From an uncultured Pelagibacteraceae bacterium (GTDB lineage Bacteria > Pseudomonadota > Alphaproteobacteria > Pelagibacterales > Pelagibacteraceae), in NCBI GenBank assembly GCA_902513415.1, contig CABXMS010000011.1, forward strand, positions 1-15,283: a DNA stretch of 15,283 bases. Reading direction: 5' to 3'. Positions 9,893 to 10,940 of this stretch are shown in pieces. Each line of letters begins with the position of its first letter. The first letter of the stretch is position 1. Both the position numbers and the translations under genes were made by a program. Below the pieces are notes generated by a model. It was not told where the DNA came from, did no database searches, and saw nothing but the letters and a program-made list of their open reading frames with translations.

Positions 9893-9915
9893 AAGGGGCG
9901 TTCTGTTGCCAGGTG
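9893..9915 (-). repeat. GC-rich intergenic element, copy 1 (cspA-nadA spacer)
   Basis: First of three near-identical 23-bp elements. The core on the plus strand is GGCGTTCTGTTGCC (9897-9910), preceded by AAGG and followed by AGGTG. On the minus strand, the direction of the flanking genes, this reads CACCTGGCAACAGAACG followed by CCCCTT. It lies about 98 bases after the cspA stop, beyond a GC-clamped stem-loop, and about 78 bases before nadA. It is identical to copy 3 and differs from copy 2 at two positions. It is far more GC-rich than its surroundings. Confidence 0.85.
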
Positions 9916-9936
9916 CTCTATAAATCAACCTATAAC

Positions 9937-9988
9937 CATTGGGGGAGAAATTAAATTTTATAATTTTTTAAAGTTCCACCCCCAAATG
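9937..9988 (-). terminator. GC-clamped stem-loop after cspA
   Basis: TTGGGGG (9939-9945) pairs with CCCCCAA (9979-9985), and the stem can extend outward by CA/TG with one bulged base and inward through GAA/TTC past an internal mismatch. The loop is AT-rich. It starts roughly 25 bases after the cspA stop. As a transcript 3' structure it would protect or terminate cspA mRNA, but no U-tract follows, so it is not a textbook Rho-independent terminator. A 7-bp clamp with five consecutive G-C pairs is unlikely by chance in this AT-rich DNA. Confidence 0.5.
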
Positions 9989-10012
9989 TGTTTGAAATCT
10001 ACCGAAATATGA

Positions 10013-10216
10013 TTAAGCTTTTTGCAGATTAACTGCGGAAGGACCTTTTTCACCGTTCTCAACTTCAAATGTTAATGCATCGCCTTCGTTTAACTCAAAA
10101 CCTGCAGCTTGAGCTGCCGAAGTGTGTACAAAAACATCTTTTTCTTTATCTTCTCTTTCAATGAAACCATATCCTTTAGTTCCATTAAACCATTTAACTT
10201 TTCCGTTTATACTCAT
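10013..10216 (-). CDS. cspA: Cold-shock domain protein (CspA family)
   Basis: A 67-residue single cold-shock domain protein, a small beta-barrel that binds single-stranded RNA/DNA and acts as an RNA chaperone or antiterminator in the cytoplasm. Seen: the start KVKWFNGTKGYGFIE with RNP1-type KGYGFIE (14-20), RNP2-type VFVHTS (28-33), and the C-terminal FEVENGEKGPSAVNL, all typical. Length is exactly that of the family. It stands alone with non-coding spacers on both sides, each carrying one copy of the GC-rich intergenic element. Its predicted leader contains a perfect stem-loop, consistent with post-transcriptional control, though cold induction itself cannot be read from the sequence. Which paralogue it is (cspA, cspE or similar) is not decidable. 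Confidence 0.96.
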   Translation of the reverse strand: MSINGKVKWFNGTKGYGFIEREDKEKDVFVHTSAAQAAGFELNEGDALTFEVENGEKGPSAVNLQKA

Positions 10217-10246
10217 TTTATTTTCTTTCTTTTTTATTTAACTTTA

Positions 10247-10266
10247 TTGTTAGAAAAAACTAACAA
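10247..10266 (-). promoter_or_regulatory. Stem-loop in the cspA 5' leader
   Basis: TTGTTAG and CTAACAA (10247-10253 and 10260-10266) form a perfect 7-bp stem with a six-base homopolymer loop (U6 in the minus-strand transcript). It begins within a few bases of the predicted cspA transcription start, so it would be a 5'-terminal hairpin on the mRNA. Such structures may stabilise a message or act in temperature-responsive control; this role is inferred. Confidence 0.45.
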
Positions 10267-10274
10267 CAGGACAT

Positions 10275-10303
10275 CTTTAAATTGATTTGATAAGAAATGT
10301 CAA
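10275..10303 (-). promoter_or_regulatory. Candidate cspA promoter
   Basis: A consensus -35 TTGACA (10298-10303 on the minus strand), a 17-base spacer and a weaker -10 TTAAAG (10275-10280) place the start near 10268, some 50 bases before the cspA ATG. The -35 is perfect and the spacing optimal. The copy 2 element lies upstream of this promoter, so it is probably not part of the cspA leader. Confidence 0.5.
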
Positions 10304-10320
10304 GTTAATATAAACTAGAG

Positions 10321-10343
10321 AAGGGACGTTCTGTTGTCAGGTG
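10321..10343 (-). repeat. GC-rich intergenic element, copy 2 (DUF924-cspA spacer)
   Basis: Second copy of the 23-bp element, with core GACGTTCTGTTGTC (10325-10338) on the plus strand. It differs from copies 1 and 3 only at two positions, G to A and C to T, which face each other across an 8-base loop if the core folds as a 3-bp stem. It begins 10 bases after the stop of the DUF924 gene and ends before the predicted cspA promoter, so it sits at a transcript 3' end. Confidence 0.85.
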
Positions 10344-10352
10344 TGTATTATT

Positions 10353-10913
10353 TTACCAAGATGAGTTGGGGGAATTTAAAAATTCAACTTCATCGTCTGA
10401 AGACACTCTATTTAAAACTTTATTTCTATGGGGGTATCTACCAAATCTTTTTATAACCGCAGTGTGATCTAACCAAAATTTTTTTATTTTTTCTAGGTCT
10501 GAATGGTTTTTCAAATATTTCTCCATTAATTCATATGCCTTTTCATGGTCTGAAATACTCTCACTATGAATAAGAGGCAATAAAGCAAAGAGTCTCTCAC
10601 TTTCATTCATTTTATCTAAAAAGTTATTTGCTATTATTTTAACCAAGACAGATCTTGATTTTTCATCTTGCTCAAAAGCTTTTCCGTTTTCCCTAAATAA
10701 ATTTCTTGAAAATTGGTCAAGTAAAATAATCAGAGCGAGACAACCCCTATCCGTATCTTGCCAATCATCCAGTTTGTTTTGACTCGCTAATTCGTAATCA
10801 TTAAAAAATCTACTTTTTATAACTTGATCAAATTTAAAATCTTTTTGGAATTTTTTTTCATCAGGTGTTTCTACAAACCAAAAATAGAGAATTTTTTTAA
10901 TTTTTAAGTTCAT
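10353..10913 (-). CDS. DUF924 family protein
   Basis: A protein of the DUF924 family (function unknown, predicted all-helical, TPR-like). Seen: the N-terminal ILYFWF (8-13), LDQFSRNLFR in the middle with the family's LDQFxRN signature, and the C-terminal KRFGRYPHRNKVLNR, whose FGRxPHRN is the second signature. I chose the ATG at 10913, giving 186 residues, because the family starts just before I-L-x-F-W-F. An in-frame TTG at 10946 would translate the GC-rich element copy 3 and is rejected. No Shine-Dalgarno sequence is visible, and the ATG is only four bases from the element, so the element could affect its translation. It lies between cspA and ssrA, each separated from it by an element copy. 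No biochemical role is claimed. Confidence 0.88.
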   Translation of the reverse strand: MNLKIKKILYFWFVETPDEKKFQKDFKFDQVIKSRFFNDYELASQNKLDDWQDTDRGCLALIILLDQFSRNLFRENGKAFEQDEKSRSVLVKIIANNFLDKMNESERLFALLPLIHSESISDHEKAYELMEKYLKNHSDLEKIKKFWLDHTAVIKRFGRYPHRNKVLNRVSSDDEVEFLNSPNSSW

Positions 10914-10917
10914 ATTT

Positions 10918-10940
10918 AAGGGGCGTTCTGTTGCCAGGTG
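10918..10940 (-). repeat. GC-rich intergenic element, copy 3 (ssrA-DUF924 spacer)
   Basis: Third copy of the 23-bp element, identical to copy 1, with core GGCGTTCTGTTGCC (10922-10935) on the plus strand. Only in this copy is there also a flanking 5-bp stem, GGGGC (10920-10924) with GCCCC (10940-10944). It starts 34 bases after the tmRNA tag stop codon and ends four bases before the DUF924 ATG, so it could act as the tmRNA 3' end, as a DUF924 leader, or as both. Confidence 0.85.

Follow-up and report, generated by a model that had tools for sequence, protein, structure and literature searches.

Displaced copies of the ssrA 3′ end as probable attachment sites of small gene cassettes in SAR11 bacteria

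Integration at a transfer-messenger RNA (tmRNA) gene usually leaves a displaced tail of ssrA as its scar, and the tycheposons are marine tyrosine-recombinase elements that carry cargo at RNA genes. SAR11 bacteria are among the most abundant marine bacteria, and to our knowledge the way in which their variable genes move is poorly known. Islands at ssrA have been described for Dehalococcoides, in which an integration module is present in 16 of 31 islands and absent from the rest (McMurdie 2011, PMC3146451). The Islander collection of tRNA and tmRNA islands tests for an integrase gene, so that integrase-less arrays would be filtered out; among its 3919 islands, it lists 4 tandems with at least three members (PMC4383910). 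The present analysis concerns a 15,283-nt stretch of an uncultured Pelagibacteraceae bacterium (GCA_902513415.1, contig CABXMS010000011.1, referred to as the window), in which a short GC-rich repeat accompanies ssrA, a DUF924 gene and the cold-shock gene cspA. The repeat copies are very probably attachment sites, with the 3′ end of ssrA as the attB of SAR11 tyrosine-integrase elements, behind which integrase-less mini-elements would have become stacked after mobilisation in trans.

The ssrA tail and its displaced copies

A repeat search and a scan of the whole window returned the same family of three same-strand copies of a 21-mer, with zero, two and zero mismatches in copies 1, 2 and 3, as the initial annotation had reported; also in agreement with it, no further copy occurs in the window at up to three mismatches. 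The chance expectation for such copies is 0 (200 dinucleotide shuffles). The annotation had placed one copy in each spacer between genes, which holds for copies 1 and 2, lying downstream of cspA and DUF924, whereas copy 3 is the last part of ssrA itself (Table 1) and belongs to a known Rfam family, an outcome that the annotation had foreseen as speaking against a new element. Since ssrA, DUF924, cspA and nadA all lie on the minus strand, the repeat reads GCACCTGGCAACAGAACGCCCCTT at the ssrA end and downstream of DUF924 and cspA. The consensus of RF01849 ends in gcACCuGGCAACAGAAacCucCACU; on its own, copy 1 matches this tail weakly (23.6 bits, under the threshold of 50), and copy 2 is not among the RF01849 matches of the window profile scan. 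From the coverage of copy 3 and the weak match of copy 1 it follows that one tail is native and two are displaced: judged by sequence, copy 3 is the 3′ end of ssrA, and the same tail is present in displaced form as copies 1 and 2. The window thereby shows the restored target at one end and a displaced 3′ fragment at the other, in the same orientation, by which such islands are recognised.

Comparison of the 80 best nadA loci of relatives revealed ssrA upstream of nadA in 35, each with the exact 21-base tail. Empty sites, a further mark of tRNA and tmRNA islands, were found in 25 of these 35 loci, where the tail lies <250 bp from nadA; the other 10 are filled with 0.7 to 5.1 kb of extra DNA, and a second core is recognisable in four of them (L004, L022, L036 and L056). 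A tRNA-Leu gene lies between tail and nadA in all five empty loci scanned (L005, L007, L012, L034 and L048), and was not found between tail and nadA in the window.

The repeat is widespread in the family. Among 297 genomes of the family of G001 (Pelagibacteraceae; the genome to which locus L004 belongs), 256 had one or more copies when three mismatches were allowed, 161 had two or more and 80 had three or more, with a maximum of 10 in one genome; a reversed control pattern gave zero matches in the same genomes. All copies lie on one strand in 127 of the 161 multi-copy genomes, which is only a rough sign because contig orientation is arbitrary. Forty regions were fetched, picked for several copies or for a copy of interest; 32 contain ssrA, and in each of these the ssrA tail comes first, and the copies all lie downstream on its strand. 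The copies in these arrays bound small cassettes, which bears out one of the possibilities raised by the annotation. Cores or small arrays without ssrA were also seen (L103, L105, L117, L098, L107 and L109); two ssrA-less regions begin just after the RNase H gene rnhA and L117 begins at the 3′ end of a tRNA-Thr gene, so that these places are possible secondary target sites. The tail is conserved beyond the family, with a match of at most one mismatch in 148 of 289 genomes of an Alphaproteobacteria sample. Among the matches listed for that sample, same-strand pairs within 20 kb occur only in the family members G001 and G015 (G325 and G436, with two same-strand matches each, lie outside the matches listed); G329 has a same-strand pair 50 kb apart.

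A different suggestion of the annotation was a shared signal for 3′-end processing or termination, that is, an intrinsic terminator or processing hairpin common to several genes. The ssrA tails do form the five outer pairs GGGGC/GCCCC in 33 of 33 cases (window included), and a T run sometimes follows the tail. However, the displaced copies retain the 3′ arm GCCCC in 103 of 128 cases and the 5′ arm GGGGC in only 28 of 128, compared with 32/33 and 33/33 in ssrA tails, and at least four of the five outer pairs are possible in 58/128 displaced copies versus 33/33 tails, so that the hairpin is not conserved at all copies; copies 1 and 2 of the window form three and two pairs, respectively. Moreover, mechanically called open reading frames (ORFs) of at least 60 aa in the cassettes are mostly antisense to the element (158/217), and in the class-wide sample most matching genomes have one match each. 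Strand bias and loss of the 5′ arm speak against such a signal for the displaced copies, and a common RNA signal is a very improbable explanation; a 3′-end role of the tail within ssrA itself is possible. Retention of the 3′ arm with loss of the 5′ arm would fit a DNA site that is read asymmetrically.

Cassettes and their ends

The 41 regions studied, including the window, contain 120 cassettes of 77 to 10,031 bp (median 778 bp), 105 of them in ssrA-containing regions. Of 40 cassette proteins compared with Pfam, 17 matched no family at E 0.001. Among the families detected are an inverse-autotransporter barrel, DUF805, DUF2784, methionine synthase and a formyltransferase domain, and further cargo comprises methyltransferases, a glycosyl transferase, a sugar dehydrogenase, proteases and an Mrr-type nuclease; a scan for defence genes gave three weak PADLOC matches among ten proteins. 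Short cassettes (<450 bp) mostly carry sense-strand frames (27 of the 34 with a frame of at least 50 aa). One protein family of about 200 aa, represented by L116:7464-8126 and its relatives, was noted separately: 27 ORFs in 13 regions cluster with it and 198 database relatives were found at E 0.001, and the sole member scanned has no Pfam match.

Cassettes recur in different settings. Eighteen pairs of cassettes from different genomes are homologous, with a match that covers 70% or more of each member; when a neighbour is present on the same side of both, the left neighbours are related in 2 of 11 cases and the right neighbours in 0 of 9. In two further pairs, both members stand first behind ssrA. 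One 253-bp cassette is 100% identical in the arrays of two genomes, with unrelated neighbours.

The ends of larger cassettes carry iterons, defined here as an exact 6-mer with at least three G/C that is repeated at 10-12 bp, within the first 120 bp or the last 130 bp. Such repeats were found at the left end of 39, at the right end of 41 and at both ends of 23 of the 83 cassettes of at least 450 bp; base shuffling gave means of 0.57 (left) and 0.98 (right) with maxima of 3 and 4, and the cassette middles contained iterons in 0/83. The left iterons are spaced by 11 bp in 36 of 39 cases and start exactly 46 bp after the core in 21. Their words vary by cassette (GGGCAC, GACGCA, GATCAC, TGTACG, GGGCGG, ACTCGT, TGTACC and others), and the left word recurs in the right end of its own cassette in 24/39, compared with 3.85 on average and at most 10 in 500 swaps; as the cassettes are related to one another, none of these iteron statistics is a formal probability. 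Many cassettes with antisense genes have common end sequences irrespective of the gene carried. Arm sites that flank the core on both sides are the textbook layout of a tyrosine-integrase attP (PMC4111918). As far as sequence can tell, the iteron layout appears to be that of such an attP, also present in integrase-bearing SAR11 tRNA elements (6/10, see below), and an integrase would be expected to bind the iterons.

The window contains two cassettes (Table 1), in which the only frames are DUF924 and cspA, with no integrase gene. Relatives of the DUF924 protein occur in 13 of 118 genomes; the best one (84% identity, G108) lies behind a displaced core with the same left junction CCCCTTAAATATGAAC, not behind ssrA. 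Cold-shock genes resembling that of the window are common, being present in 223 of 247 genomes. In G058 (locus L265), a 90% relative lies behind a core; a GACACA pair spaced by 11 bp separates the two, and a similar terminator-like hairpin, identified by eye, stands behind the gene; among the 30 cold-shock loci fetched, two further loci have a core-like match with 4 mismatches.

Beyond the array, the NadA protein of the window shares 92% amino acid identity with NadA of a Pelagibacteraceae single cell. Between ssrA and thyX (11233-13697), genes for an acetyltransferase, a 3HCDH_N protein and a YdjC protein were found, and in several relatives a 315-aa frame, ThyX-like by eye, adjoins ssrA. Positions 5316-7980 presumably hold one pyruvate phosphate dikinase gene, which is split over two frames near 7010-7058 by a frameshift or sequencing error.

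Table 1. Features of the window around ssrA and the two cassettes
Feature	Coordinates	Strand	Evidence or remark
nadA, first gene beyond the array	8826..9815	-	PF02445
Copy 1, probable outermost displaced core, followed by nadA	9895..9915	-	
Cassette 2, 407 bp, cold-shock gene with leader and terminator-like hairpin	9916..10322	-	hairpin by eye; without iterons
cspA, cold-shock protein gene, 67 aa	10013..10216	-	PF00313, E 1.6e-24
Copy 2, probable displaced core between the two cassettes	10323..10343	-	2 mismatches
Cassette 1, 576 bp, DUF924 gene with ATG 6 nt after the core	10344..10919	-	without iterons
DUF924 protein gene, 186 aa from ATG	10353..10913	-	PF06041, E 6.1e-56 on the longer frame 10353-10946
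ssrA, permuted two-piece alphaproteobacterial tmRNA gene	10917..11215	-	RF01849, 242 bits (gathering threshold 50), E 1.2e-69
Copy 3, 3′ end of ssrA, probable integration core (restored target)	10920..10940	-	5/5 outer stem pairs kept

Integrases and proposed movement in trans

Xer and serine recombinases were rejected as drivers. Matches to PF00589 occur in 235 of 297 genomes, and most matching genomes have one match, which is Xer-sized; the core also does not seem to resemble a dif site. A serine recombinase (PF00239) was found in 1 of 31 genomes, which speaks against this type as a general driver, and no CcrB-like serine recombinase module was recognised. The sole case (L112:11748-12488, a small serine recombinase of 246 aa) lies within a 7.5-kb island adjoining ssrA.

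Fourteen regions around other PF00589 hits, 13 beyond the Xer-sized set or uncertain and one Xer-sized, served as controls. Ten contain a tRNA gene and none contains the ssrA core. Iterons lie within 120 bp past the tRNA 3′ end in 6 of the 10 tRNA-linked integrase regions versus 31 of 1402 background windows; their distance from the tRNA is 47-56 bp in three of the six, near the cassette value, and 79 bp in L153. At L149 (8667-15870), an integrase element at tRNA-Met adjoins a unit of about 1.3 kb that has the same word TGACACA and is bounded by copies of the tRNA end. No integrase-sized frame was seen in this unit, of whose short frames no search was made, and the pair is proposed to represent a helper and its passenger side by side.

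A search with the L149 integrase gave matches in 29 of 397 genomes; the 16 best loci were examined for the core, and all loci were searched for its exact 15-base form. One integrase gene, in G235 (L209/L229), proved to be located at ssrA; it starts about 100 bp past the tail and is preceded by the core and the iterons TGGCGTCA. Its product matches PF00589 with 70.6 bits and no second Pfam family, and has further phage-integrase matches. R196, K221, H274, R277, H300 and Y309, which we take to be the catalytic six of the integrase family, are invariant in 29 aligned integrase sequences. Arm-binding domains typically begin with three strands and a helix, and the same elements open the model of P0121, a 93% relative of the G235 integrase (mean predicted local distance difference test score 85.8, predicted template modelling score 0.68). 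At E 0.001 or better, 1230 database proteins match the G235 integrase; among the matches listed (120), identity is 55-93%, PF00589 is present throughout, and most sequences originate from ENA and JGI sources, on short contigs. The far end of the G235 element is not seen because the contig ends 551 bp past the integrase. The 4.5-kb element of L004 has the same left end as far as the start codon of the integrase gene, less one iteron copy; other genes follow, and the TGGCGTCA pair reappears at the right end of the L004 element. The simplest reading is that L004 would be a passenger element that kept its ends and lost, or never had, an integrase.

Nearest solved folds of the P0121 model include the Tn1549 and lambda integrases and, at rank 5, the integron integrase IntI4. 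Together with the topology of many small units behind one fixed site, this could recall a true integron or a cluster of attC sites lacking integron-integrases (CALIN). The 161 cores, taken with 10 bp on each side, nevertheless contain the attC boxes RYYYAAC in 0 and GTTRRRY in 2 cases, no integrase was hit in the fetched arrays, and the sites are ssrA tails; the integron explanation is disfavoured by the box counts and deserves hardly any credence.

Under the attachment-site reading, a helper integrase would bind the arms of a passenger circle and recombine the passenger core with the ssrA tail. Passenger DNA would then rebuild the end of ssrA, the old tail would be pushed outward, and the next element would enter in front. 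As each insertion would rebuild the ssrA end and displace the old tail, elements would stack downstream of ssrA, each bounded by a tail, with the newest cassette adjoining ssrA. About half of the larger elements appear to keep integrase-type arm sites and are probably moved in trans by a helper integrase encoded at ssrA; the window would hold two cassettes, DUF924 and cspA, in an armless form. Armless cassettes of this kind could be relics that were trimmed, or core recognition alone could suffice to move them. An extension of this reading is integron-like capture in SAR11, in which the fixed tmRNA tail takes up recombinase-free cassettes and diverse tmRNA-specific tyrosine integrases act in trans on the same core, each with its own arm specificity and set of cassettes; we regard this extension as evenly balanced between true and false.

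Several findings weigh against the attachment-site reading. The attP argument does not cover the window's cassettes or the short ones, because the window's two and 36 of the 37 cassettes under 450 bp are without iterons (1/37 has such a repeat); about half of the larger cassette ends also have none. At L151 and L154, iterons stand 13 bp from the tRNA rather than near 46. A second core was not seen in 6 of the 10 filled nadA loci, nor was a clear right-hand core found after the DUF924 relative of G108 (nearest candidate, 7 mismatches) or the cold-shock relative of G058, and the other 12 DUF924 relatives (55-62% identity) have no core within their stretches. Copies lie on both strands in 34 of the 161 multi-copy genomes, though contig orientation is arbitrary, and 8 of the 40 fetched regions have cores and no ssrA in the stretch. 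Among the 29 genomes with an integrase match, only one was found to have it at ssrA; the Pfam scan of this integrase gave a catalytic domain and no arm-binding family, and no PF00589 hit was obtained in the fetched array regions of 31 genomes, although these genomes may be incomplete.

Direct repeats one helix turn apart are, moreover, typical of excisionase sites (PMC7498355), which raises the alternative that the iterons are regulator or excisionase sites, not integrase arms, and that cassettes move by core recognition alone. The lack of iterons in short cassettes and of a Pfam arm-binding domain in the integrase agree with it. Against it, both arms carry iterons whose words match, iterons are found again next to integrase genes at tRNAs, and the modelled start of the integrase seems to resemble that of arm-binding domains; this alternative is considered unlikely.

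The armless state of the window's cassettes, the divergence of copy 2 and the lack of an integrase hit in the fetched arrays would also suit an array that is a relic, in which integration is old, the integrase has been lost and turnover now proceeds only by homologous recombination. The 253-bp cassette that is identical in different arrays with unrelated neighbours, the iteron words that still match within one cassette, and the integrase frame with conserved residues at ssrA in one genome argue against a relic, which is considered unlikely. The preferred reading remains that the copies are attachment sites used in trans.

Viral sequences were considered as carriers of an attP. Three pattern scans of IMG/VR yielded phage tmRNA genes plus likely chance matches, and a virus-borne attP was rejected; six matches (L142-L147) lie in GC-rich surroundings and were taken for chance, and viral contigs scanned for the ssrA integrase contained a single weak match. 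Eight IMG/VR contigs (L121-L128, one of 242 kb) have a permuted alphaproteobacterial-type tmRNA gene (RF01849, 88-156 bits) with the same tail motif at its end. A 15-base pattern gave 38 IMG/VR matches, among which four contigs (L166, L174, L177 and L190) contain the exact 15-base core AACAGAACGCCCCTT and may hold attP sites.

Comparison with described systems

No description of a SAR11 ssrA-tail array was found among the matches listed in searches of open-licence papers, and the words tmRNA and integrase are absent from a SAR11 genomics paper (PMC7318151). A single, easily found site, cassettes whose end codes match, and a candidate integrase make a route of gene exchange in SAR11 accessible to direct testing. 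The arrays also illustrate that islands can escape tools demanding an integrase in each island.

The Dehalococcoides islands are similar in that they are stacked, carry ssrA-end repeats and reside in a streamlined host; they differ in their serine recombinase DsiB and in the size of the vcr islands (about 12 kb), compared with a tyrosine integrase and a median cassette of 778 bp in SAR11, and the parts of that report drawn on here do not mention paired element-specific iterons (PMC3146451). The additive flexible island of Methylopumilus, another streamlined aquatic bacterium, has recurring 20-bp repeats of a tRNA-Lys end and inserts of 330 bp to 42 kb; its target is tRNA-Lys, and an analysis of att arms is not mentioned in the sections of the article used here (PMC10872708). 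Tycheposons are 4-200 kb long and carry a recombinase (PMC10872708), unlike the SAR11 cassettes, which mostly lack one. The islands collected by Islander have the same restored target with a displaced fragment at the far end (PMC4383910). Integron arrays and CALINs share rows of small cassettes without a recombinase in cis (PMC11389934), whereas in the SAR11 arrays no attC boxes were found, the target is a tmRNA tail, and arm-type iterons point to a phage-type integrase. Taken together, stacking and recombinase-free rows are already known, and the SAR11 arrays differ in the combination: their target is a tmRNA tail, the cassettes are very small, the arm words are element-specific and matched, and a tyrosine integrase was found once at the site.

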